From: Halomonas sp. JB37
GTDB lineage: Bacteria > Pseudomonadota > Gammaproteobacteria > Pseudomonadales > Halomonadaceae
DNA: 64,000 bases
Assembly (NCBI RefSeq): GCF_002332255.1
Contig: NZ_NRGW01000001.1
Location: 2,046,001 to 2,110,000 of the forward strand
Direction: 5' to 3'
In this document: positions 24,459 through 37,825 of the stretch, in pieces
Numbering within the stretch: position 1 is the stretch's first letter
How the letters are laid out: the number at the start of each line of letters is the position of its first letter
Notes under the pieces: generated by a model
Seen by the model: only the letters and a program-made list of their open reading frames with translations
Databases searched by the model: none
Told to the model about the DNA's origin: nothing
Position numbers and translations under genes: made by a program

Positions 24459-25261
24459 TGACGGTTCATTTTATTGGCGCAGGCCCCGGCGCACCGGATC
24501 TGCTCACGCTGCGCGGGCGCGATTTAATCGCGGCCTGCCCTGTATGCCTTTACGCAGGGTCACTCGTGCCCGAGCAGATTCTTGAGCACTGCCCTGAAGG
24601 CGCGCGCATCGTTAATACGGCGACGCTTTCTCTGGATGAAATTCTTGATGAAATTCAAGCCGCCCACGCTGCGGGCCAGGATATCGCCCGGCTGCACTCC
24701 GGCGATGTGTCGGTGTGGTCCGCCATGGGGGAGCAGCTGCGCCGCCTGCGTGCGCTGGATATTCCCTACAGCGTCACCCCCGGCGTGCCTTCATTTGCGG
24801 CGGCGGCGGCAACGCTGGGCCAAGAGCTAACATTGCCAGGAGTGGCGCAATCATTAGTGCTAACACGCACGCCGGGCCGTGCCAGCGCAATGCCCAGCAG
24901 TGAAAGCCTCGCTAACTTCGCTAATACCGGCGCTACGCTGGCTATTCATCTTTCCGTGCATAATCTGGCGCAGGTAGTGAGTGATTTGACGCCGTTTTAC
25001 GGCCCGCAGTGCCCGGTCGCTATCGTTTGGCGGGCGAGCTGGCCCGATGAGCGGGTGGTTCGAGGCCGTCTTTCCAGCATTGAAGCATTAGCCGCAGGTG
25101 CCCTGCAGCGCACGGCGCTGATTCTGGTAGGGCCGGTGCTGGAAAACGACGATTTTCATGAAAGCAGCCTTTACGCGGTAGGTTACGACCGCCGCTTTCG
25201 GCCTCAGTCTGCGGATTCACCGTTTGCGGGCAGCGTGGATGATGAAGAGGACCGCGCATGA
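24458..25261 (+). CDS. cobM: Precorrin-4 C11-methyltransferase CobM
   Basis: 267 aa tetrapyrrole methylase acting after ring contraction. [45 protein letters not shown] and [21 protein letters not shown] are the CobM/CbiF pattern. ATG 24458 follows CAGGAG at 24443-24448; it overlaps the cobE stop by one base. Its stop overlaps cobF (ATGA). Confidence 0.94.
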
Positions 25262-26101: not shown

Positions 26102-26542
26102 ATGAGCTTTTACGTTTACCTATCCGGCGAGATCCACACCGACTGGCGCGATGAAATCCAGCGTGGTGCAGAAGCCGCAGGTTTGGATATCGTCTTCACC
26201 GCCCCGGTCACCGACCACGACGCCAGTGATGCCGCAGGCGACCACCTAGGTAAGCCAGAAAACGGCTTCTGGCGCGACCACCAGTCGTCTAAGGTCAACG
26301 CTATACGTACTCGCACTTTGATTGAGCAAAGCGATTTAGTCGTGGTGCGTTTTGGTGACAAGTATAAGCAGTGGAATGCCGCCTTTGATGCAGGCTACTG
26401 CGCCGCACTCGCTAAGCCCTACATAACCCTGCACAGCGACGACATCGTTCACCCGCTGAAAGAGGTGGATGCCGGTGCGCAGGCTTGGTGCACCACCACT
26501 GAACAAGTCGTTGAAACCCTCAAGTACGTGCTGAAAGCATAA
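26102..26542 (+). CDS. ytoQ: YtoQ family protein
   Basis: 146 aa. MSFYVYLSGEIHTDWRDEI, the WRDHQSSKVNAIRTRTLI segment and FGDKYKQWNAAFDAGYC match the conserved YtoQ family, which has a nucleoside-deoxyribosyltransferase-like look but no assigned reaction that I know. A clear ribosome site (AAGGAG about 26090) precedes ATG 26102. A decayed copy of its 3' end lies about 0.8 kb downstream beyond brnTA. Confidence 0.85.
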   Translation: MSFYVYLSGEIHTDWRDEIQRGAEAAGLDIVFTAPVTDHDASDAAGDHLGKPENGFWRDHQSSKVNAIRTRTLIEQSDLVVVRFGDKYKQWNAAFDAGYCAALAKPYITLHSDDIVHPLKEVDAGAQAWCTTTEQVVETLKYVLKA

Positions 26543-26700: not shown

Positions 26701-26991
26701 ATGAGTTGTCTTACCTTTGACTGGGATCCACGTAAGAATGCCGCTAATCGTAAAAAGCATGACGTCTTTCAAGAGGTCAGAACTGCTTTTACAGATGAGT
26801 TCGGCCGTCTGATATCAGATCCCGACCATTCTGAGGAGGAGGATCGCTTCATACTTCTCGGGACGAGCATTCATTCGCGCTTGTTGGTGGTGTGCCACTG
26901 CATTAGAGACGGTGAGACCATTCGCATTATTTCAGCGCGCAAGGCAGATAAACGAGAGAGAAAAGCCTACGAAGGATATAGATATGCGTGA
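26701..26991 (+). CDS. brnT: BrnT-family ribonuclease toxin
   Basis: 96 aa, the usual BrnT size. FDWDPRKNAANRKKHDV at the start, the RFILLGTS strand, and IRIISARKADKRERKAY at the end match the RelE-like BrnT fold, a ribosome-independent RNase. A TATAAT hexamer sits at 26678-26683, 18 bases before the ATG. It overlaps brnA by 8 bases in the usual toxin-first order; BrnTA complexes usually repress their own promoter. Confidence 0.87.
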   Translation: MSCLTFDWDPRKNAANRKKHDVFQEVRTAFTDEFGRLISDPDHSEEEDRFILLGTSIHSRLLVVCHCIRDGETIRIISARKADKRERKAYEGYRYA

Positions 26992-27193
26992 TCATTATGA
27001 TTTTTCAGAGTCTGTTAAAAACCCATACGCCAAAAAGCTTAAAAAGCAGGTCACGATCCGGCTGGATGAAGACACCATCGCGTATTTCAAAAATCTCGCT
27101 GAAGAAAAAGACCTACCTTATCAAAGCTTGATTAATCTCTATCTGCGCGACTGCGCGCAGTCACATAAAGACCTTAAGCTGGAATGGCAATAA
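26984..27193 (+). CDS. brnA: BrnA-family antitoxin
   Basis: 69 aa. A ribbon-helix-helix-like core (KKQVTIRLDEDTIAYFKNLA) follows a short N-terminal arm and ends in YLRDCAQSHK, as in BrnA antitoxins. ATG 26984 has AAGGA about 7 bases upstream inside brnT; the longer frame from 26912 runs inside brnT and is rejected. Confidence 0.85.
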   Translation: MRDHYDFSESVKNPYAKKLKKQVTIRLDEDTIAYFKNLAEEKDLPYQSLINLYLRDCAQSHKDLKLEWQ

Positions 27194-27339: not shown

Positions 27340-27425
27340 GCTCCTCCCACAAACATAGCCACTGCATTAGTGGTGTTGAACAAGTGTTGCGGGAGGGCGC
27401 TTTAGCGCGCGATATATTCCGCCAC
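27340..27425. repeat. REP-like extragenic palindromic pair
   Basis: CTCCTCCCACA near 27341 is roughly the inverse of TTGCGGGAGGG near 27393, and the latter runs into the palindrome GCGCTTTAGCGC. A G-rich lead followed by a short palindrome, in inverted pairs, is the pattern of gammaproteobacterial REP sequences. Copy number elsewhere in the genome cannot be seen here. Confidence 0.4.
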
Positions 27426-27429
27426 AATA

Positions 27430-27799
27430 AAGCCCCCTGTAATGCGGGTACCGCCTTGGGAAGGCACGAGCTAAAAAGGGACCCGCGAAGGGCAGCACCC
27501 GCAGCCCCGCTCAGCCACATGCCCACATCGTCAACTCCCCACCGCGCAGGCGTTGCGGCTCAGGGCGCAACGGTAACGTCACCCAAACCAACACCCACCT
27601 AAGACCTATGGCTACCCCTCGCGATCAAGTTTTCAGGTGACCGAAGCAAAATTTATCAATAAAGTATGATTGAATAGAGCAAAACGAGCGGACACGCGAG
27701 TTTTTGATATATAGCCGAATGTCGCGCCTGTGCTATATAAAACAGATGTTTAGAGTTATTTTTGAATGCTGGATAATGTTAATAAATACGCGTGCATAT
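27430..27799. other. Gene-free stretch before the cassette array
   Basis: I see no supportable gene, RNA or repeat here. The left half is GC-rich and the right half (from about 27630) AT-rich, which marks a change of DNA origin close to the array edge. If an attI site exists it would lie at the right end, but no integrase gene is present. Confidence 0.5.
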
Positions 27800-27829
27800 T
27801 TAAGAATGTTATGTGGCGGGCTATATAAT
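27800..27829 (+). promoter_or_regulatory. Candidate cassette promoter (Pc-like)
   Basis: TTAAGA (27800-27805), an 18-base spacer and a perfect TATAAT (27824-27829) predict a start at about 27836, directly at the first cassette boundary. It could drive the first cassette gene and perhaps others. Confidence 0.5.
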
Positions 27830-27856
27830 CACTGTTAGACGCAAAGGGAGGGATTA

Positions 27857-28957
27857 ATGGCCAAACGGGACCCAAACAAGACTGCCCGAAACAAGCGAGT
27901 TGCAGAAATAAAATCTCAGCGGCGAATCCTGCAGCCACTCGTGTTTGAAGAAATGAAGGCAGCTTGCGGCGGAAAGTACACCGCAGAGGCTTCTCTGAAC
28001 GCGTTTATAGGCAGTAAGACAGATGACTACATAAAACTGCACGATGACGTGATTCATACCCCGCTTGAATACAAAAGCAAGTGGCTCTCTGGTCTGAAGC
28101 GTTGTCGTTCCAAGGCTCTAAAAGCTGGAACGAACCATCGGCATGTTGTGATGTATGATCTTATCACCGGCGACCACCCAAACTTCAAAAAGTACGTTTC
28201 CCTATTTCTTGAAAGCTCCTTTTTGAAGCACTATGAGGAGCATTACAAGCAGAAGCCCAAGCTGGACGAAAGCGAATACTGGTTTGGGAACAACGATGAT
28301 GAGTTTGGGCTTCTTGTTACGCCCCGCTTCGCCGCAGATCAGTGGGAAAACGACAACTCCGAGATTCGCCATTTCAAGAACCCGTATTGGACAATCGCTC
28401 ATGTGATGGAGACGGGGTTCTGCTACATGGGTGAAAAACGTGTTCGAACGTTCACTACCATCGAAGACTATCTTCAGTTCTTCCGAGACATGGTACGCCG
28501 GACTAAATCGCAGTACCAGTTGGACGTCGCAAATCGATACATTGATTTCGTTAGTACGAGCGATGATCCGCTTTCGGTTCCACTTCTCATACCTGAGCTG
28601 AGATACGATCCTCACAAGAAAAAGCACCAGCACCGCCTCGACTACCTGATCGTTAATCCTTGGACCCATGAAAAATACGGGTTCGAATTTTCTCCTTGGT
28701 CGGCCCACGGTAAGCTAAAGGGTGCTGGTCGCAAAATGGCGGAATATGACAAGGATGCAAAGGAGAACTTTGAAAAGGAGATGAAGAAGCACAAGCGGTA
28801 CTGGAGGAAATATGGTGTCTCCTACATCATCTATACAGACGAAGATCTTGCCAATATGGATGAGGTTTGGTCGGAAATGAAGGGGCATCTTGAGTCATCG
28901 AAGGAACCCGAGCAGTTGGAATTTGCTTTGCTGGGAGAGATTGATGGGGATGGGTGA
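27857..28957 (+). CDS. Cassette-borne conserved hypothetical, possible PD-(D/E)XK-like nuclease
   Basis: 366 aa, unusually large for a gene cassette. I recognise no characterised family. The N-terminus is basic (KRDPNKTARNKR), then come an aromatic-rich middle (LLVTPRFAADQWENDNSEIRHF is a striking stretch) and a C-terminal part with RLDYLIVNP, GFEFSPWSAHG and, after a Lys-rich helix, WRKYGVSYIIYTDEDL. A strand-Asp, strand-Glu-x-Ser and terminal beta-strand order resembles PD-(D/E)XK nucleases such as TnsA, but the usual Lys is not clear, so this is inference. A strong GGGAGGG site precedes ATG 27857. Its cassette boundaries are exact. A defence role is possible but unproven. Confidence 0.75.
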   Translation: MAKRDPNKTARNKRVAEIKSQRRILQPLVFEEMKAACGGKYTAEASLNAFIGSKTDDYIKLHDDVIHTPLEYKSKWLSGLKRCRSKALKAGTNHRHVVMYDLITGDHPNFKKYVSLFLESSFLKHYEEHYKQKPKLDESEYWFGNNDDEFGLLVTPRFAADQWENDNSEIRHFKNPYWTIAHVMETGFCYMGEKRVRTFTTIEDYLQFFRDMVRRTKSQYQLDVANRYIDFVSTSDDPLSVPLLIPELRYDPHKKKHQHRLDYLIVNPWTHEKYGFEFSPWSAHGKLKGAGRKMAEYDKDAKENFEKEMKKHKRYWRKYGVSYIIYTDEDLANMDEVWSEMKGHLESSKEPEQLEFALLGEIDGDG

Positions 28958-28963
28958 GTTTGC

Positions 28964-29062
28964 GTCTAACAAATCGTTGCAGGTGACCTTTGACCCGCTG
29001 CCCATTTTTGCTGCTACAAAAACGGCCGGCGGATCAAACGCACCTGAACTCAGGCGTTATGC
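28964..29062 (+). other. attC site 1
   Basis: R'' is GTCTAAC (28964-28970) and the R' of the next cassette is GTTATGC (29056-29062). The arms pair along most of their length, for example GTTGCAGGTG with CACCTGAAC, leaving an unpaired G in the usual attC position. R'' is the exact complement of GTTAGAC at 27834-27840, the 5' boundary of this cassette. Confidence 0.82.
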
Positions 29063-29114
29063 ATCGTCAAACTGATCGCGGTGCGTCTTGCATTAAAAGG
29101 TAGGAAGAATTTCT

Positions 29115-29246
29115 GTGAAAATTTCGTTTCATTTTGATGCTGATGACGAATCATTAGGGTCTTACTATGGAGGCCCGATTCGGGAAGCGCTGATGAAAGC
29201 CATTCTCGAATCGCGTGTAATGGATCTACATTCAAAGATATTCTGA
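29115..29246 (+). CDS. Small cassette ORF, 43 aa, hypothetical
   Basis: GTG 29115 with AGGAAG at 29102-29107 upstream encodes 43 aa beginning MKISFHFDADDESLGSYYGG, acidic at first and helical at the end. No family is recognised. The stop TGA is made by the first bases of the IS3 element, so the native protein may have been longer. The gene sits in the right place for a cassette ORF, just inside the 5' boundary. Confidence 0.5.
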   Translation: MKISFHFDADDESLGSYYGGPIREALMKAILESRVMDLHSKIF

Positions 29247-29305
29247 ATCGCCCCAGGTTTCGTAGACACCTCCAGGCCTTATACTAAAGGTATCTAGGAG
29301 GAACC

Positions 29306-29584
29306 ATGAGCCATCCCCGCTACACTGAAGAATTCAAAATCGAAGCCGTCAAACAGGTGGTAGAGCGCGGCCATCGCGTGGCCGAGGTCGCTGAGCGGCT
29401 AGGCGTGTCAGGGCACAGCTTGTACAACTGGATCAAGCGCTACGATAAGCCGGTAGAACAACGGCAAGAAGATGATGATCTCCAAGCTGAAAACCGTCGT
29501 TTGAAGGCCGAACTCAAACGCGTATCAGAAGAGCGAGACATATTAAAAAAGGCCACCGCGTACTTCGCCAGGGAGTCCGACTGA
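29306..29584 (+). CDS. IS3-family transposase OrfA
   Basis: 92 aa with an N-terminal helix-turn-helix (YTEEFKIEAVKQVVERGHRVAEVAERLGVS) and a C-terminal leucine-zipper-like coiled coil (LQAENRRLKAELKRVSEERDILKKA). AGGAGG lies just before ATG 29306. A slippery AAAAAAG at 29545-29551 near its end is the probable -1 frameshift site that makes the OrfAB transposase. Confidence 0.9.
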   Translation: MSHPRYTEEFKIEAVKQVVERGHRVAEVAERLGVSGHSLYNWIKRYDKPVEQRQEDDDLQAENRRLKAELKRVSEERDILKKATAYFARESD

Positions 29585-29631
29585 GGTACGCGTTTATTCA
29601 AAATTATGCGAGCCAATACGCGGTACGTCGC

Positions 29632-30459
29632 TTGTGTCAGATGATGGCCGTGCATCCCAGCGGTTACTACGCATGGTGTAAAAAAGCGCTCTCTAATCGA
29701 GCTCGGGAAGATGAGCGCCTACTGGGATTGATCAAGCACTCCTGGCTTGAAAGTGGCGGTGTATATGGCTATCGCAAGGTCTACCAGGACTTGCGTGAAG
29801 CTGGCGAAACTTGCGGGAAGCACCGTGTGGCGCGTCTTATGAGTAGGGAAGGTTTACGCTCTCAGACGGGCTATCGACGACGCCCTGGCGGCTATGGCGG
29901 TGGAAAAGCGGCTGTTGTATCCCCTAACCATTTAGCCCGTCAGTTTGAAGTAACAGCGCCAAATATTGCTTGGGTGACGGACATCACGTACATCCGCACT
30001 TACGAAGGCTGGCTTTACTTAGCGGTAGTTATCGACCTGTTTTCTCGTCAAGTGGTTGGCTGGTCGATGAAGTCTCGCATGACCACGGAGTTGGTACTGG
30101 ATGCTTTGTTATCAGCAGTCTGGCGACGCAAGCCACAAGGAACGGTGATGGTGCATTCGGATCAAGGAAGCCAGTTTAGCAGTGGAGACTGGCAAAGCTT
30201 TCTGAAAGCGAATCACTTGGTAGGCAGCATGAGCCGACGTGGTAACTGTCATGACAACGCCGTTGCTGAAAGCTTCTTTCAACTTCTCAAGCGAGAGCGA
30301 ATCAAGCGACAGATTTATTCAACACGCGAAGCGGCTAGATGTGACGTGTTCAATTACATTGAAATGTTTTACAACCCAAAGCGCCGACACGGCACAAGTG
30401 ATAACTTGTCACCGGTTGAGTATGAAAGGCGTTACTTCAAGAGCCTAACGGGTGTCTAG
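29632..30459 (+). CDS. IS3-family transposase OrfB (DDE integrase domain)
   Basis: 275 aa in the -1 frame relative to orfA; the frame is open back to 29584. Catalytic signature: WVTDITYI (first Asp), HSDQGSQFSS (second Asp) and NAVAESFFQLLKRE (Glu), the D,D-35-E pattern of rve-type transposases. Probably made mainly as a fusion through the A6G slip in orfA; TTG 29632 is only the first start codon in frame. No inactivating change was seen. Confidence 0.9.
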   Translation: MCQMMAVHPSGYYAWCKKALSNRAREDERLLGLIKHSWLESGGVYGYRKVYQDLREAGETCGKHRVARLMSREGLRSQTGYRRRPGGYGGGKAAVVSPNHLARQFEVTAPNIAWVTDITYIRTYEGWLYLAVVIDLFSRQVVGWSMKSRMTTELVLDALLSAVWRRKPQGTVMVHSDQGSQFSSGDWQSFLKANHLVGSMSRRGNCHDNAVAESFFQLLKRERIKRQIYSTREAARCDVFNYIEMFYNPKRRHGTSDNLSPVEYERRYFKSLTGV

Positions 30460-30475
30460 AATATCCGGGGCGATT

Positions 30476-30573
30476 CACTAACAAGTTGCTCAAGCGGACG
30501 TAAAATAGTTGGCTGTCGTTCGTTCCTCACTATTTTAGCCAACTATTTTACGCCGCTTAGCAAAGCGTTAGCT
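30476..30573 (+). other. attC site 2
   Basis: R'' region CACTAAC (30476-30482, its first two bases shared with the IS end) and R' GTTAGCT (30567-30573). A long hairpin lies between: TAAAATAGTTGGCT pairs exactly with AGCCAACTATTTTA, and the outer arms pair with single unpaired C and A. R'' does not match GTTATGC at 29056, the start of the preceding cassette. Confidence 0.85.
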
Positions 30574-30602
30574 ATCACGAATAATTGTTGAAGGAAATAG
30601 AG

Positions 30603-30929
30603 ATGCTTGAAAGCTCGCCAGATAACACCGAACAGCTCAGGTCGATCAATAAAAAGATCGTGGCCGACGGAGAAGAGCTTCCCGCCGTCACTCTCAAGGA
30701 CGGGAGTAGGGTGCAAACAGGTACGGTCGCGACGATGCTTCGCAATGTCGCTTTGTACAACGCAGGCGAACGCGGAGAAGTAGAAGAACACTTGGAAGTG
30801 GCCGTTCCGACGTTGATTAAAGTCGGACTGTTTGAATTGTTTTCAGTTGATGAATGGATTAACGGGTCAAATGCTGGGCGTAGTTTCGTTGGCCAGCGCG
30901 CTAAAGAATACCTTGCCAAACAAAGCTAA
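30603..30929 (+). CDS. Cassette-borne small conserved hypothetical
   Basis: 108 aa from ATG 30603, preceded by GAAGGA. The protein is soluble and mostly helical, with LPAVTLKDGSRVQTGTVATML, IKVGLFELFSVDEWINGS and a basic tail. It looks like a small family often seen in integrons and accessory DNA, with no known activity. The stop TAA lies inside the R'' core of the following attC. Cassette 5' and 3' cores are exact complements (GTTAGCT/AGCTAAC), so this is a complete cassette. Confidence 0.7.
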   Translation: MLESSPDNTEQLRSINKKIVADGEELPAVTLKDGSRVQTGTVATMLRNVALYNAGERGEVEEHLEVAVPTLIKVGLFELFSVDEWINGSNAGRSFVGQRAKEYLAKQS

Positions 30930-31026
30930 CAGATCGCTGCAGTTGACCACCCAAAGCGCTGCCGCGCTTCGGGTTCCCTCCGCGGCCTTCGGCCGCTCCG
31001 GCGGCAACTGAGCTAAGGCGTTAGAA
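30924..31026 (+). other. attC site 3
   Basis: R'' AGCTAAC (30924-30930), R' GTTAGAA (31020-31026). The arms pair, with GCTGCAGTTGACC opposing GGCAACTGAGC and unpaired G and A as in other attC sites. A GC-rich inner hairpin (GCGGCCTTCGGCCGC) fills the loop. Confidence 0.85.
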
Positions 31027-31037
31027 GGCAACCCAAC

Positions 31038-31313
31038 TTGAAGCCGTTACCGAACAGCGTTACTCCATACAAGAAAACCCCAGACTTTGATGAGCATACA
31101 ATGCCTAAAGGGCTGCTGAACGAGCACCAAATCAAGGAGTTCTTATGAGGAAAAATTGTGGTGCTGGAGGGCAAGCTACAGTACACAATCAACGAGCCAG
31201 TAAAAGAAGTTATTATTCTTGATCCGGAAAATAGTGGTGTCGTAGAACTGACCATACGGCATGAGGTTAAGCCTTTAGGCAAGGTGCGGTTCTATGTTGA
31301 AGTTTATCAGTAG
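31038..31313 (+). pseudogene. DUF1971 cassette gene with one in-frame stop
   Basis: Reading from TTG 31038 gives 91 codons matching the small DUF1971 cupin-like family (related to the extra domain of some TehB tellurite proteins): PLPNSVTPYKKTPDFDEH, then MPKGLLNEHQIKE, then GKIVVLEGKLQYTI, ending PLGKVRFYVEVYQ. Codon 37 (31146-31148) is TGA where relatives, as I recall, have Trp, a TGG to TGA change. Otherwise the frame is intact. Its cassette cores pair exactly (GTTAGAA/TTCTAAC). Weak readthrough could still occur. Confidence 0.78.
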
Positions 31314-31319
31314 GTCGCC

Positions 31320-31367
31320 TTCTAACAAGTCGCTCAAGGTTCGCGCACTGGACAGCCTCAATCGTGC
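31320..31367 (+). other. attC site 4, 5' half only
   Basis: TTCTAAC (31320-31326) followed by AAGTCGCTCAAGG is a normal attC left arm. The right arm is missing because IS5-family sequence begins at about 31368. Confidence 0.7.
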
Positions 31368-31985
31368 CCTGTTCACGGATACGCTCGCTGTCATAGCCTT
31401 TGTCAGCCACCAGCGCATCACCTGACGGCAAATCGTCAATTAATGCCTGGGCTTCTGTGCTGTCGTGTACCTCACCGCCCGTTATCCTGAAAGCATTGGG
31501 AAGTCCGTAAGCGTCGACGGCCAGATGAGGTTTGCTGGTGTTGCCTGCACGGCTTTTACCAATGACTTCTGTTTGCTCTGTGGCGGCCCTGTACTGTCCT
31601 GGTGTGCTTTAACATAAGAGCCATCAATGAACAGCCACTCAACATCAGGGTAATCCACCCATGTGCTGAAAACCGTCATCAGTGTTCCAGCCGCTGGCCA
31701 GGCGTTAAAGCGCTTATAGGCAGTATTCCAAGACCCAAACGCTTCGGGCAGGTTCCGCCACTGACAACCCGTGCGCATCCGGTAAAGAATACCTTCCACA
31801 GTGGGTCGCAGACTGGCCTTGTCATAGACACCGTGTTGAAGCAGGATAGGTTTTAGCTTCGACCAGTGTTCATCCGTGAGCATTTTCGGGACATCGCAGG
31901 CTCACAGTTTGTTGGTGTGGGAACCAACATTGTGCGATTTTGCCTTTATCCTGCCAAATTTTCTTCGCTCAAACGTCAACAGGTC
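31368..31985 (-). mobile_element. IS5-family element, copy 1, 3'-truncated
   Basis: The 5' terminus (GACCTGTTGACGTTTG on the minus strand) abuts a CTAG target tetranucleotide at 31986-31989. The transposase starts at 31883 (MLTDEHWSKLKPILLQHGVYDK) and contains GCQWRNLPEAFGSWN and LFIDGSYVKAHQ. It then continues in the -1 frame (VIGKSRAGNTSKPHLAVDAYG, then GDALVADKGYDSERIREQ). The same frame change occurs in copy 2, so it is probably programmed. The catalytic 3' part is gone. Confidence 0.85.
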
Positions 31986-32056
31986 CTAGACTTAATTAAT
32001 TAGCCCGAGCTAACTATAAAAAACCGTGACTGAAAAAAGCATAAAGGAGCAGACCG

Positions 32057-32761
32057 TTGAGCCTAAACAATGAATCGCGTCGACGATTTATGAAGGGTGC
32101 GTTAACCAGCATTCCTGCCGTCACCCTGGGGAGTGGCATCTCACTCACCGTCTCCGCCAGCGAACCACCAGAACAGCTAAGTGACTATCAGCCAGTTTTT
32201 TTCGACGCAGACGAATGGGTTTTTCTGCTTGCGGCCTGTGACCGGTTGATTCCCAGCGACGGGCCTGGGCCCGGTGCCCTGGAAACCAATGTGCCCATCT
32301 TTATTGATAGGCAGATGGAAGGCAGCTTTGGTTATGCGGCTGATTGGTACATGAAAGGTCCCTTTCCTGACGATGTATTACCGCTGATGGGATATCAGTC
32401 GTCAATGCTCCCACGGGAGGTTTATCGGGCGGGGATTGCCGCAACGCTTGACTACTGCGTGCGCCAGTATGGCCAAAGGTTCTCAGCCCTGGATAACGCC
32501 ACTCAGGAAGAGGTGTTACAGCAGCTTGAGCAGGAAGACATAACCTTCGACAACGTTAGTGCTCGCCAGTTTTTTGCCTTTTTGTTGCAAAATACCAAAG
32601 AGGGCTATTTTGCCGACCCAATCCATGGCGGCAACAAGCATATGGCCGCCTGGAAATTTATCGGCTTCCCAGGCGCCAGGGGCGCGTATCTGGAGTGGGT
32701 CGACCAACATAACGTCAAATATCCGTTAGGGCCGGTCAGCCTTACCGGCGAAAGGGGATAA
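32057..32761 (+). CDS. Gluconate 2-dehydrogenase subunit 3 family protein (small subunit)
   Basis: 234 aa with a twin-arginine signal (SRRRFMKGALTSIPAV at residues 7-22), so it should be exported folded by Tat, probably carrying the GMC subunit, which has no signal of its own. The mature part is the DUF1955-like small-subunit fold (LLAACDRLIPSDGPGPGALE, then GYFADPIHGGNKHMAAWKFIGFP in pieces). TTG 32057 is preceded by AAGGAG at 32043-32048. The next gene starts 2 bases after its stop. Confidence 0.85.
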   Translation: MSLNNESRRRFMKGALTSIPAVTLGSGISLTVSASEPPEQLSDYQPVFFDADEWVFLLAACDRLIPSDGPGPGALETNVPIFIDRQMEGSFGYAADWYMKGPFPDDVLPLMGYQSSMLPREVYRAGIAATLDYCVRQYGQRFSALDNATQEEVLQQLEQEDITFDNVSARQFFAFLLQNTKEGYFADPIHGGNKHMAAWKFIGFPGARGAYLEWVDQHNVKYPLGPVSLTGERG

Positions 32762-32763
32762 GC

Positions 32764-34536
32764 ATGGCAAAAATAAATCCACCGGTTGATGTTGTACTGG
32801 TTGGTCTTGGCTGGACCAATTCGATTATGGGCATGGAATTAACCGAGGAAGGCTTAAGCGTTTTGGCGCTTGAGCGCGGTGAAGACCGCGATACCGTACC
32901 GGACTTTTCCTATCCGAAAATGGCCGATGAGCTTACCTACGGCGTGCGCCTTAAACTGATGCAACAGCCGGCCAAAAGCACGCTGACGGTTCGTCATGGT
33001 CTTGGTGATATGGCTGTCCCTTACCGTACCCTGGGTTCATTCCTACCCGGTGATGGTGTTGGCGGCGCGGGCGTGCACTGGAACGGACATACTTGGCGGC
33101 CACAGCCTCAGGAATTGCGCCTTAAAAGCTACGTCGAGGAGAACTTCGGCGCCGATATCATTCCTGATGAAATGACCATTCAGGATTACGGCGTAAGCTA
33201 CGAAGAGCTGGAGCCCTTTTTTGACTATTTCGAAAAAGTGGCGGGTATTTCTGGCAAGGCGGGTAACCTTAACGGCGAGCTTCAGGAAGGGGGCAACCCA
33301 TTCGAGGGATGGCGCTCAAATGAATATCCCATGCCGCCGCTCGCGCGTACCCATAACGATACGCTGTTTGCTGACATGGCGCGTGATCAGGGACTGCATC
33401 CTTTTCCCTTGCCTGCCGGTAACGCTTCAGAAGCGTATACCAACCCCTATGGTATGCAGCTTGGGCCGTGTAATTTTTGTGGTTTCTGTGAACGTTATGG
33501 CTGCATGAACTACTCCAAGTCCTCGCCCCAGACCTGTATTCTGGGCGCACTGAAGCGGCGCGAAAATTTCTCTTACCAGGCCAATAGCGAAGTGCTACGG
33601 GTCGAGCTAGATAGCGATGGCAAAAAGGCCACCGGCGTGACCTATATCGATAGCGAGGGCGATGAGATATTTCAGCCGGCTGATCTGGTGGTGCTGGGTA
33701 CGTTCTCGCTGAACAATGTACACCTGATGTTGATATCGGGTATTGGTACCCCTTATGACCCGGTAAGCGGCGAGGGTGTGGTCGGCAAGAACTACGCCTA
33801 CCAGATGAACGGTGGCTCAACGCTCTACTTCAAGGATAAAGAGTTCAATCCCTTCATTGGTGCAGGTGCCAATGGCGAAATCATCAACGACTTCGGCGTT
33901 GAGCAGATCGACTTTGCCCAGGAAGGCTTCATTGGTGGCTCCTATATCAATGCCGCGATGACCAATGGGCAGCCGATTCGCAATATGCCGCTGCGCTCAG
34001 GTGCGCCAAGCTGGGGCGCTGGCTGGAAACAGGCCGTGCAGGAAACCTATGGTCACACCATGACGATTGGTTCTCACGGCAGCAACATGGCCTACCGCGA
34101 CTGCTATCTGGATCTTGACCCCAACTATACCGATGACCATGGGCGACCGCTCATGCGCATGACGTTTGACTGGAAGGCAAACGATGTGCGCATGACCCAG
34201 TTCATGAAACAGAAGATCGACACGCTCTCCAAGGCGCTGGGGCCGGACGACTACAAGCTCTCGTTCAAGGATTTCGATTCGCATTATGATGTCCGGCCTT
34301 ACCAGACGACCCATAACGTCGGTGGTGCGATCATGGGGTCCGACCCTTCCAGCAGTGCGCTGAATAGGTATCTGCAGAGCTGGGATGTCCACAACGTGTT
34401 TGTGATGGGGGCCAATGCTTTTCCCCAGAATCTTCAGTACAACCCCACGGGGCTTGTGGGCGCGCTGACCTATTGGGCTGCGAAAGCGATCCGCGAGCAG
34501 TACTTACCCAACCCCGGCCCGCTGGTTCAAGCATAA
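32764..34536 (+). CDS. GMC-type FAD dehydrogenase large subunit
   Basis: 590 aa periplasmic flavoprotein of the gluconate/sorbitol/2-ketogluconate dehydrogenase type, oxidising a sugar or polyol and passing electrons to the cytochrome subunit. FAD fold: VLVGLGWTNSIMGMEL (16-31 region, with Trp in the glycine loop). A Cys cluster CNFCGFCERYGC lies in the middle, as in dehydrogenases with an Fe-S-like site. The C-terminal THNVGGAIMG and NPTGLVGALTYWAA carry the catalytic His/Asn region. Substrate cannot be told from sequence. Part of the operon between two IS5 fragments. Confidence 0.88.
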   Translation: MAKINPPVDVVLVGLGWTNSIMGMELTEEGLSVLALERGEDRDTVPDFSYPKMADELTYGVRLKLMQQPAKSTLTVRHGLGDMAVPYRTLGSFLPGDGVGGAGVHWNGHTWRPQPQELRLKSYVEENFGADIIPDEMTIQDYGVSYEELEPFFDYFEKVAGISGKAGNLNGELQEGGNPFEGWRSNEYPMPPLARTHNDTLFADMARDQGLHPFPLPAGNASEAYTNPYGMQLGPCNFCGFCERYGCMNYSKSSPQTCILGALKRRENFSYQANSEVLRVELDSDGKKATGVTYIDSEGDEIFQPADLVVLGTFSLNNVHLMLISGIGTPYDPVSGEGVVGKNYAYQMNGGSTLYFKDKEFNPFIGAGANGEIINDFGVEQIDFAQEGFIGGSYINAAMTNGQPIRNMPLRSGAPSWGAGWKQAVQETYGHTMTIGSHGSNMAYRDCYLDLDPNYTDDHGRPLMRMTFDWKANDVRMTQFMKQKIDTLSKALGPDDYKLSFKDFDSHYDVRPYQTTHNVGGAIMGSDPSSSALNRYLQSWDVHNVFVMGANAFPQNLQYNPTGLVGALTYWAAKAIREQYLPNPGPLVQA

Positions 34537-34547
34537 GGAGAGCGACC

Positions 34548-35864
34548 ATGATGATACATCGACAATGGCGTCAGGGGTTGGCGGGCATTGGTCTTTTAAG
34601 CGCGGCGGCGCAAGGCATGGCATTTGATCAGACTGAGATAGAGCGCGGTGAGTACCTTTCCAGAGCGGGCGATTGTGTTGCCTGTCACACCGCTCCAGGT
34701 GGCGAGCCTTTTGCTGGCGGTCAGGCGATTGAAAGCCCTTTTGGGGAGATTTTCTCGACCAATATTACCCCTGACCCAGATACCGGAATTGGCAACTATA
34801 CGCGCGATGAGTTTGCCGCTGCGCTGCGCGATGGCGTGCGTAATGATGGCAAAAAGCTTTATCCGGCCATGCCGTATCCTTCCTACTCGTTAATTATCGA
34901 TGACGATATTGACGCCCTCTATGCCTACTTCATGGAAGGCGTTGCGCCGGTGTCGAATCAGCCGGAGAGTACGGATCTGAGCTTTCCGTTCAACCAGCGC
35001 TGGGGTATTGGGATTTGGAACTGGTTTTTCACATCCTCTGAACCGTTCACGCCCTCTAATGATCGAAGCGATGAGCTGAACCGGGGCGCTTACCTGGTGC
35101 AAGGGCTGGGGCACTGCGGCAGTTGTCATACACCGCGTGGGTTGTTCTTCCAGGAAAAGGCCATGAACGGCGAGGGCCGTGACTTCCTGAGAGGGGAAAC
35201 GCTGGAAGGCTGGTACGCACCTAATCTGCGCGGTCGTGGTAATCAGCGCCATCCGCTTCAGCGCTGGAGCGAAGAGGATATCGTTGCCTATCTGGAGACA
35301 GGCCGAAATGATTATAGCGCCGTTGCCGGTGAGATGGCCCCGGTGGTTGCGTACAGTACATCGCATCTGGATGAGGCCGACCTCTATGCTATCGCGAGCT
35401 ATCTCAAATCATTGCCCGCAGGAAAAGGCGACGAGGCGCCCTACGATGAACAGGCCGACGAACAGACCCAAGCGATGCTGACCCACGCCGATGTGGACGG
35501 TAATACCGGTGCTCGGCTCTATCTGGATAACTGCAACGCCTGCCACTTTGCCAATGGTAAAGGGGCATCGCAGGTGTTTCCGTCACTGGAGGGCAGTTCG
35601 CTGGTCAATGCCGAGGATCCCACCGGGATCATTCGCGTGATTCTATCCGGCGCTCGTATGCCTTCGACCGAGAAGCGTCCAGAAGCGCTGGCCATGCCCG
35701 ATTTCGCCTGGCGGCTTTCTGATGATGAGGTAGCTGATGTGGCCAATTTCGTGCGTAATGCCTGGGGCAATGAAGGTGGTGAGGTAAGTGCTGGCCAAGT
35801 AGCCGGCGTGCGAGACAAACTGCCGGAAGACCGTCTCTCCAGCGAGCCTACCTATATTGATTAG
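34548..35864 (+). CDS. Triheme cytochrome c subunit of a membrane-bound dehydrogenase
   Basis: 438 aa. The signal peptide (residues 1-24, ending GMA/F) exports it; three class I heme sites CVACH, CGSCH and CNACH start near residues 43, 189 and 329. This is the layout of the electron-transfer subunit of alcohol, gluconate and sorbitol dehydrogenases, which reduce ubiquinone. ATG 34548 has AAGGAG 7 bases upstream, 11 bases after the GMC stop; the longer frame from 34473 lies inside the GMC gene. Confidence 0.9.
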   Translation: MMIHRQWRQGLAGIGLLSAAAQGMAFDQTEIERGEYLSRAGDCVACHTAPGGEPFAGGQAIESPFGEIFSTNITPDPDTGIGNYTRDEFAAALRDGVRNDGKKLYPAMPYPSYSLIIDDDIDALYAYFMEGVAPVSNQPESTDLSFPFNQRWGIGIWNWFFTSSEPFTPSNDRSDELNRGAYLVQGLGHCGSCHTPRGLFFQEKAMNGEGRDFLRGETLEGWYAPNLRGRGNQRHPLQRWSEEDIVAYLETGRNDYSAVAGEMAPVVAYSTSHLDEADLYAIASYLKSLPAGKGDEAPYDEQADEQTQAMLTHADVDGNTGARLYLDNCNACHFANGKGASQVFPSLEGSSLVNAEDPTGIIRVILSGARMPSTEKRPEALAMPDFAWRLSDDEVADVANFVRNAWGNEGGEVSAGQVAGVRDKLPEDRLSSEPTYID

Positions 35865-35877
35865 CTGAATTAGCTAG

Positions 35878-36424
35878 GGCCTGTTGACGTTTGGGCGAAG
35901 AAGATTTGGTAGAGTAGAAGCAAGCTCGCAGAATAGAGGTTCCCGCACCAACAAACTGCGAGCCTGCGATGCCCTGACAAATGCTCACGGATGAACACTG
36001 GTCGAAGCGTTTGGGTCTTGGAATATTGTCTATAAGCGCTTTAACGCCTGGTCAGCGGCTGGAACACTGATGACGGTTTTCAGCACATTGGTGGATTACC
36101 CTGATGTTGAGTGGCTGTTCATTGATGGCTCTTATGTTAAAGCACACCAGGACAGTACAGGGCCGCCACAGAGCAAACAGAAGTCATTGGTAAAAGCCGT
36201 GCAGGCAACACCAGCAAACCTCATCTGGCCGTCGACGCTTACGGACTTCCCAATGCTTTCAGGATAACGGGCGGTGAGGTACACGACAGCACAGAAGCCC
36301 AGGCATTAATTGACGATTTGCCGTCAGGTGATGCGCTGGTGGCTGACAAAGGCTATGACAGCGAGCGTATCCGTGAACAGGTTGAGGCAAAGGGCATGGA
36401 GGCCGTGATTCCACGCAGGCGAAA
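35878..36424 (+). mobile_element. IS5-family element, copy 2, internally deleted and 3'-truncated
   Basis: The end GGCCTGTTGACGTTTGGG follows CTAG (35874-35877), mirroring copy 1. Compared with copy 1, about 0.1 kb is missing between two CGAAGC repeats at about 36004, removing the transposase N-terminal part. From there to about 36424 it matches copy 1 and extends slightly further (GYDSERIREQVEAKGMEA, then PRRRN). It then runs into the dinJ relic. Not functional. Confidence 0.83.
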
Positions 36425-36654
36425 CTATGAAAGCATGGTGGCCTTTACCTTCTGCTAGTTCCTGAATTGCAGCCGCAGTTGTTTCATTTGGTTGGCGCGT
36501 TTTAAGCTCAAAGGGTATACCGCCATGATTGATGACGGCACGTGCAAAAAGCTTGAGTGCCTAAGATGGGCTTAATCCGAGATCATCACAGATGCTGGTA
36601 AATGCGACTTTTGTGTCATGATCTATGCGTGCGCTTAAGTATTTCGCTTTTCAT
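36425..36654 (-). pseudogene. Broken DinJ/RelB-type antitoxin gene
   Basis: From ATG 36654 on the minus strand the reading MKSEIL is followed after a one-base frameshift by IDHDTKVAFTSICDDLGLSPS, a TAG in place of a sense codon (CAG Gln expected), then ALKLFARAVINHGGIPFEL and IQELAEGKGHHAF. This is the RelB/DinJ ribbon-helix-helix antitoxin pattern. The 3' end is cut by IS5 copy 2, and no toxin gene remains. It lies in reverse orientation before an attC-like site, so it was probably a cassette. Confidence 0.72.
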
Positions 36655-36712
36655 GATAACTACTTCAGAATGTGTTGCAATGTCATAAATTGTAGCACTT
36701 GGTTGGATTGCC

Positions 36713-36790
36713 ACATAACGGATCGTGTTATTCACGGATTTCGGCTGCTGCGACGCTCGCACGTTCGCGCTCATACGCTGGGCGTTATAT
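36713..36790 (+). other. attC-like site 5
   Basis: ACATAAC (36713-36719) and GTTATAT (36784-36790) are the outer cores, 78 bases in total, with GCTGGGCGTTAT as a typical right end. The inner arms pair less well than in sites 1-3, so this is less certain. It would close the array before the Rho-like gene. Confidence 0.45.
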
Positions 36791-36871: not shown

Positions 36872-37825
36872 ATGGCTAGAAAAACATTAGCTTTGAAGGC
36901 AAAAAAACAGATAGACGACAACCCCGCCGACGAAGTGGAAGATCAATTCCCTGATGATCCCGAACAACGTTTTTTAAATGGCGTCGCTATTCATCCTTCC
37001 CCACGCATTTATTTAGCGCCTGGCTCTCAAGAGCGCACTGTGCGGGCGATGGATTTAATTACGCCCATTGGGATGGGGCAACGAGGATTAATCGTGGCGC
37101 CGCCAGGCTCTGGCAAAACGACGATGTTAAAACATATCTGTCAGGCCGTTGCAGTGGCTCATCCTGACATAAAGCTGTATGCCTTGCTGATTGATGAGCG
37201 CCCTGAAGAAGTGACCGATTTTAAGCGCAGTGTGTCGGCAGAGGTTCATGCATCGTCTTCAGACGAAACCTATACACACCATGTGCGTATGGCAGATAAG
37301 CTCCTTGAGACGGCACGTAAGCAAGCGGGCGAGGGGCATGATGTGATGATTGTGATTGATTCTCTTACCAGACTCTCGCGCGTTCATAATGCCGAGCAGC
37401 GGGGCAATGGCCGTACGATGTCGGGTGGGCTGGATTCCCGCGCGATGGAAATACCCCGAAAGCTGTTTGGCGCCGCGCGAAAGATCGAAAACGGCGGGTC
37501 GCTCACGATTCTGGCCACCGTGCTGGTAGATACGGGAAGCCGTATGGATCAGGTGATTTTCGAGGAGTTCAAGGGCACGGGCAATATGGAACTCGTGTTA
37601 TCTCGCGACGTGGCCAATCAACGGATTTTCCCGGCGATAGATATCGCCAAAAGCAGTACCCGTCGTGAAGAGCTTTTGATTGATGAAAAAGATATTGAAA
37701 AAGTACGCACATTGCGTAGAGGTTTGACAGCACTTAAGCCAATAGAAGGCGCGCAGAAGTTGCTTGCGCTATTGGAGAAATATCCGACTAATGCGGAGCT
37801 ACTAGATGCGTTTACATCCGACTAA
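36872..37825 (+). CDS. Rho-like ATPase lacking the RNA-binding N-terminal domain
   Basis: 317 aa; Rho is about 420 aa. The sequence aligns by eye with the Rho ATPase core only: FLNGVAIHPSPRIYL, Walker A APPGSGKTTMLK (77-84), LIDERPEEVTDFKR, VIDSLTRLSRVHN, SGGLDSRAMEIPRKLFGAARKIENGGSLT in pieces, EEFKGTGNMEL and AIDIAKSSTRREELL. The first 35 residues are charged and unlike the Rho OB fold, so the primary RNA site is missing. The ATG at 36872 has only a distant AAGG; the frame is open to 36725 but that part overlaps the attC-like site. It may be a Rho paralogue with a special role or a transferred gene. Confidence 0.82.
   Translation: MARKTLALKAKKQIDDNPADEVEDQFPDDPEQRFLNGVAIHPSPRIYLAPGSQERTVRAMDLITPIGMGQRGLIVAPPGSGKTTMLKHICQAVAVAHPDIKLYALLIDERPEEVTDFKRSVSAEVHASSSDETYTHHVRMADKLLETARKQAGEGHDVMIVIDSLTRLSRVHNAEQRGNGRTMSGGLDSRAMEIPRKLFGAARKIENGGSLTILATVLVDTGSRMDQVIFEEFKGTGNMELVLSRDVANQRIFPAIDIAKSSTRREELLIDEKDIEKVRTLRRGLTALKPIEGAQKLLALLEKYPTNAELLDAFTSD

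Follow-up and report, generated by a model that had tools for sequence, protein, structure and literature searches.

A putative attI site without an integrase gene at the head of a cassette array in Halomonas sp. JB37

Clusters of attC sites lacking an integrase (CALINs), sedentary chromosomal integrons, and integron integrases (IntI) that act in trans in assays are known, and integrase-less cassette clusters are common. The intI gene is controlled by LexA. To our knowledge, how such clusters arise and whether they still exchange cassettes are open questions. Conserved intI-less attI loci with cassettes, several of them per genome, are not known to us as a class. The current work concerns a 64,000-nt stretch of Halomonas sp. 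JB37 (the window; G000:C1:2046001-2110000, from a 3.8 Mb genome in two contigs), which contains a cassette array between the genes ytoQ and rho2. In the initial annotation the array was read as a CALIN. Its description as an integrase-less cassette cluster broken by insertion sequences (IS) stands, but the term CALIN alone misses an attI homologue at 27637-27840, at the array head. Judged by homology, this element of about 200 bp is an attI without intI. It probably represents a detached platform, without an intI of its own, which gains and loses cassettes through an IntI made elsewhere and acting in trans.

The attI-like element between ytoQ and rho2

The left border of this variable interval is ytoQ (26102-26542, plus strand; TIGR03646, 227 bits), which is present in 79 of the 82 genomes of the genus set, this genome included. 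The right border is rho2 (36872-37825, plus strand), a short Rho-like gene matching NF006886 at 381 bits and the Rho2-paralog model at 326 bits, below its cut-off. Matches to rho2 at 79% identity or more occur in 66 of the 82 genomes, or in 80 when ordinary Rho is counted. Among the 81 relatives, both genes were seen on one contig, at most 20 kb apart, in 51, and the gap between them ranges from 0.3 to 18 kb.

BLAST comparison of the window with these gaps revealed a conserved piece from 27633 to about 27837, ending where the first cassette starts. In relatives, the same element lies directly upstream of a divergent intI, and the homology stops near the intI start. A model of the element (R2), built from 40 copies with the window copy excluded, matches 27637-27840 on the plus strand at E 1.7e-33, so that attI is present by homology. 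The match ends in the core GTTAGAC (27834-27840), and the crossover GTT at 27834 is the start of the first cassette. The initial annotation had begun the array exactly at this crossover G, where it named no site. When the ytoQ copies are compared without gaps, identity lies at 0.32-0.41 between -60 and -10, rises to 0.60 in the last ten bases ahead of the core, stays at 0.56 over the following ten, and falls to 0.25-0.29 beyond them. The element occurs in 49 of the 51 intervals at E 1e-5 or better; the L133 copy (31 bits) was left out, and 48 intervals were counted. No IntI was found in any of the 51 intervals examined. A tyrosine recombinase downstream of attI in L127 was considered as an IntI and rejected, at 34% identity.

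Cassettes might also have entered through a secondary genomic site (attG-like), with the attI likeness of the flank being incidental; attG insertion has been described as one way in which cassettes come to lie without an integrase. The flank, however, fits the model of intI-linked attI over about 200 bp, far beyond a short core, and further loci also carry this element together with cassettes. This explanation is regarded as very improbable.

The intI-linked copies carry a LexA box, CTGT-N8-ACAG. At the corresponding place in the window (27649-27664, plus strand) the sequence is AAAT-N8-AAAG, and the box has decayed. Mismatches to the box number 0-2 in all nine copies beside full-length intI; beside partial intI they number 0-1 in 16 of 20 copies, 2 in three, and 3 in one. 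At the ytoQ locus all 42 copies have 2-4 mismatches, the same as shuffles. Of 28 other intI-less copies (two appear twice or in split form), one is free of mismatches and all others have 2-4. The stretch scanned was 95 bp long in ytoQ copies and 110 bp in the remainder, and the LexA and core analysis left out L102, L111, L126, and L135 (core without GTT) as well as the partial copies L106 and L109. A promoter-like site, TTAAGA-18-TATAAT, lies at the attI end (27800-27829, plus strand; 10 of 12 consensus matches), and its -10 would start transcription into cassette 1. TATAAT or TCTAAT precedes the core in 9/9 copies beside full-length intI and in 22/42 at the ytoQ locus; the promoter scan found 2 sites, compared with 0.7 in shuffles.

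A dyad of the type A attI copies, imperfect in the window, lies at 27768-27817 (plus strand) and shows paired changes across 26 copies: 84.4% of cells are paired, against 31-46% when the dyad is slid, and covariation is 0.250 against at most 0.107. Changes on both sides affect 10 of 22 pairs, a number that shuffles reach in 36 of 500 cases and that is weak alone. The candidate that GTTATGTGGC (27808) and GCCACATAAC (36710) form the two ends of one cassette that received the others was rejected, as 27808 lies within this dyad; their match is attributed to chance or to attI itself. Upstream of attI, a further conserved stretch (27384-27507) appears in up to three tandem repeats in L074, and stretches of this type also stand beside further attI copies in L134, L137, and L138.

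Sites for attC were sought with a simple palindrome scan, which missed true sites, then with a motif-plus-arm score, and then with a covariance model trained on 29 attC sites from integron loci of relatives, none from the window. With 64 kb searched, this model detected attC 1 (28964-29062; 33 bits, E 9.4e-6), attC 2 (30476-30573; 22.9 bits, E 0.0034), and attC 3 (30924-31026; 22.0 bits, E 0.0056), all on the plus strand and at E below 0.01. The one further window match at E 10 or less (24679-24764, minus strand, E 0.05) lies within coding sequence. On folding, the bottom strands of attC 1-3 give long hairpins with single extrahelical bases, in agreement with the unpaired arm bases that the initial annotation had placed at the expected positions. 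It had counted four clear sites and a probable one. Three are clear; the fourth is a half-site, the left part of attC 4 (31320-31345, plus strand), recognized from its sequence and interrupted by an IS5-like element. The last is a weak terminal attC-like site (36713-36790, plus strand) with R'' and R' motifs only and a poor fold, unmatched by the covariance model in the 64-kb search. The exact R'/R'' pairing reported for three cassettes was recovered: it is 7/7 in cassette 1 (27834-28970; R' GTTAGAC to R'' GTCTAAC), cassette 3 (30567-30930), and cassette 4 (31020-31326; small open reading frames (ORFs) only). Cassette 2 (29056-29243) is an IS-cut remnant with broken pairing, 4/7. All four cassettes lie on the plus strand. 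The array thus contains three complete neighbouring attC sites, where a CALIN has at least two, and attC 1-3 share one orientation 3' of attI, as in a complete integron. Similar sites are common in relatives. In the whole genome, nine attC matches are listed at E 1 or less: two here, five within 2615298-2618368, and single matches at 3260537 and 3592391.

Distribution of the element and exchange of cassettes

The element is not confined to this locus. With reverse-strand echoes excluded, this genome contains seven other matches to the model (E 5e-6 or better). Within the genus, 77 of the 82 genomes are matched (E 1e-5 or better), and many of them five to nine times when echoes are counted. IntI was matched in 24 of the 82 at E 1e-40 or better and in 19 above the family cut-off; all 24 are among the 77, which leaves 53 genomes with the element and without IntI at the 1e-40 threshold. 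Across a sample of the family, the element was detected in 118 of 151 genomes and 16 of 24 genera; in a class sample outside the family, it was found in none of 74 genomes. The 42 scattered attI loci used here (five from this genome) were picked by hand among the strongest matches listed, and are not a random set.

As the initial annotation had stated, no integrase is visible in the window: no intI adjoins the attI, as one would in a complete integron, and no integron integrase lies in or near the array, as is the case in a CALIN. A search of the whole genome with TIGR02249 gave no match above cut-off. Only remnants were found, at least 88 kb from the array: an intI remnant with stops (2171114-2171553) and a short N-terminal fragment (3262090-3262275). 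The remaining TIGR02249 matches look like XerC/D-type recombinases. As the genome yielded no intI other than these broken remnants, its array is probably frozen. The attI beside the broken intI of this genome (L078:8614-8790) is interrupted by a sequence that resembles the end of the IS3-family element in the window.

Sites of attC are found only downstream of the element. With matches up to E of about 0.04 retained and weaker listed matches dropped, 172 attC matches were used. Those on loci with an attI match (166) are all downstream on the same strand; the other six are on L089 and L091, integron loci unmatched by this attI model. An attC within 6 kb 3' of attI was found for 8/9 full-intI, 17/20 partial-intI, 20/25 other orphan, and 32/55 ytoQ copies. 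In this genome, an orphan attI at 2619092-2619250 is followed by a five-attC cluster; orphan attI copies at 2012538 and 923254 have no attC match in their 9-kb stretches. The nearest neighbours of 40 ytoQ attC sites were spread over full-intI (7), partial-intI (11), other orphan (13), and ytoQ (9) loci; thus, the attC pools of all locus types are mixed.

A tree was built from 110 copies (56 ytoQ, 25 other orphan, 20 partial intI, and 9 full intI). Copies shorter than 150 bp were left out, as were L147, which shares its place with L144, and L098, which is almost identical to L097. One clade of 50 copies, with support 95/94, comprises 38 ytoQ copies, including that of the window, and 12 other orphan copies; another of 16 ytoQ copies has support 100/98. 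Neither has an intI-linked member. The ytoQ copy L109 is isolated on a long branch; L123, from the closest relative, belongs with a third type, which is intI-linked. These mixed placements suggest that orphan platforms originated, or were exchanged, on more than one occasion. When the left and right halves of the element were placed in trees of their own, with 7 and 9 label changes, these did not clearly indicate that halves had been exchanged.

Indirect evidence of exchange comes from close relatives. The flanks of L097 and L098 (genomes G036 and G037) are 99.9% identical, and L097 has one additional segment of 3,567 bp. This segment starts with GTTATAG right behind one attC and ends in an attC with R'' CTATAAC; it is an exact cassette (L097:3966-7538, in the ytoQ-rho2 gap) encoding GajA and GajB of the Gabija system (744 and 668 bits). 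An intact IntI is present elsewhere in G037, and none was found in G036 at E 1e-22. In three of five further close pairs (L095/L096, L137/L138, and L093/L104), homology runs from ytoQ or from just upstream of attI and stops at the attI core. Three well-anchored comparisons, drawn from L095/L096 and L137/L138, give 90-94% identity for the 200 bp ahead of the core and 59-62% for the 200 bp behind it, with a random mean of 59%; a fourth was wrongly anchored, since that L138 copy has no GTT at the core, and was left out of the count.

An alternative is that homologous recombination spread the element as a mobile or duplicated promoter region and also, without IntI, produced the array differences. 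The tandem attI copies in L137 (three) and L138 (four, one partial), which share a left flank, and the conserved -10 hexamer are in line with this. The L097/L098 difference, however, has exact cassette boundaries, and we consider such spread to be distinctly improbable.

Plain decay is another reading: an old integron between ytoQ and rho2 lost its intI, attI and cassettes are eroding fossils, and the scattered copies are further dead integrons. It is favoured by the broken intI of this genome, by the IS elements in the array, and by the 20 of 45 non-ytoQ tree copies (full-length intI copies aside) with only a partial intI beside attI. Decay is also favoured by the 23 of 55 ytoQ copies without an attC match within 6 kb, and this count weighs against refilling in trans, as do several other observations. 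Four ytoQ copies lack GTT at the core. In L134/L136 and L125/L126, homology stops inside the element, before the core. Among orphan copies elsewhere, 13 of 25 cluster with intI-linked copies, as would be expected from recent intI loss. Sites of attC are no commoner in intervals of genomes with an intact IntI (6/10 with IntI above cut-off, against 23/41 others). Finally, G036, G016, G070, and G078 carry arrays unlike those of their neighbours and show no IntI at E 1e-22; under refilling in trans, the integrase source must then have been lost, have been transient, or have been missed in draft assemblies. Decay, however, does not account for the exact cassette difference or for the homology that breaks off sharply at the core in three of the close pairs. 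Nor does it account for a core and -10 that were kept while the LexA box was lost, or for genus-wide orphan clades without intI-linked members. It is judged unlikely.

Refilling in trans is therefore the reading preferred here. IntI, supplied by another integron locus in the same cell or by a transient element, would recombine cassettes at the attI GTT and exchange them at attC sites; the intI-less attI would remain a landing site, and probably a promoter, for cassettes. The action of an integrase in trans, its identity, and the promoter activity are inferred. These data suggest that gene-capture sites can persist and be refilled at a distance from the enzyme serving them. It is quite possible, although somewhat less likely than not, that the integrons of this family form a distributed system, in which old intI-less attI lineages copy to new places, keep working as landing and expression sites, and are fed in trans by one or a few IntI; the inherited and selected unit would then be the attI platform and not the intI-attI pair. 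A landing site defined by sequence explains the position of the cluster and predicts where others lie in each genome, and close species pairs make the exchange measurable. Annotation based on intI-attI pairs would, if distant attI sites are served by IntI, miss part of the cassette load, among it defence genes such as those of the Gabija cassette found here in a relative.

Cassette genes, IS elements, and neighbouring features

The cassette genes had been described as largely unknown. This holds for the 366-aa ORF of cassette 1 (27857-28957, plus strand), which has no match in Pfam, NCBIfam, or PADLOC and none by sequence among solved structures. A low-confidence model gave weak structural matches of its C-terminal part to a nuclease-like (PD-(D/E)XK-like) fold, so this part may be nuclease-like. 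Its relatives occur at four genome-collection loci (41-69% identity), which have no match to this attC model, and on five plasmid records (41-49%). In L138, a homologue of cassette 1 stands right behind attI, and the DNA is 82% identical over 27634-29062. The ORF of cassette 3 (30600-30929, plus strand) encodes a DUF7709 protein (PF24813, 144 bits). PADLOC gave nothing for three cassette ORFs, and the gene set is modest overall.

The array is broken by IS elements, as had been noted. An IS3-family element (29244-30477, plus strand; NF033516, 339 bits) with 27-bp inverted ends cuts cassette 2; no 3-bp duplication was found at its ends. An IS5-like element cuts attC 4, and inverted IS5-like copies (31346-36460, ends approximate; arms of 384 nt, 98% identical) surround a three-gene gluconate-dehydrogenase-like operon (32057-35864) encoding a PF13618 protein (gluconate 2-dehydrogenase subunit 3), a GMC oxidoreductase, and a cytochrome c. 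This operon is not part of the integron; with the IS5-like pair it resembles a composite transposon within the array.

Between ytoQ and attI lies a BrnT/BrnA toxin-antitoxin pair (26701-27193), and related DNA occupies the same gap in several relatives. Minus-strand remains at 36440-36700 appear by eye to be a RelB/DinJ-type antitoxin with stops inside. At the right ends of many intervals (such as L109 and L116), just before rho2, a common stretch resembles by eye the first part of an IS1182-type transposase; on this side, the variable gap may thus end at the remnant of an old IS. An Rfam scan of the window found only a cobalamin riboswitch (1393-1623), which precedes a TonB-dependent-receptor-like gene and a large region for cobalamin synthesis; a tRNA scan gave no match.

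Comparison with known systems

Like a CALIN, the array has several attC sites and no integrase gene nearby; it differs in that it is headed by an attI homologue, whose position is conserved throughout the genus. Like a sedentary chromosomal integron, it is a chromosomal, species-wide array with attI and attC of the same families, whereas here no intI is present at the locus and several attI copies occur per genome. An attG insertion would likewise place cassettes outside the main integron and need IntI in trans, but the target here is an attI homologue and not a degenerate genomic site. A further likeness is to the IntI-linked attI of Halomonas-type integrons (L009-L036), which share about 180 bp of homology up to the core, the -10, and the attC pool; attI of the window type differs from them in its lost LexA box, its lack of intI, and its own clades in the tree.

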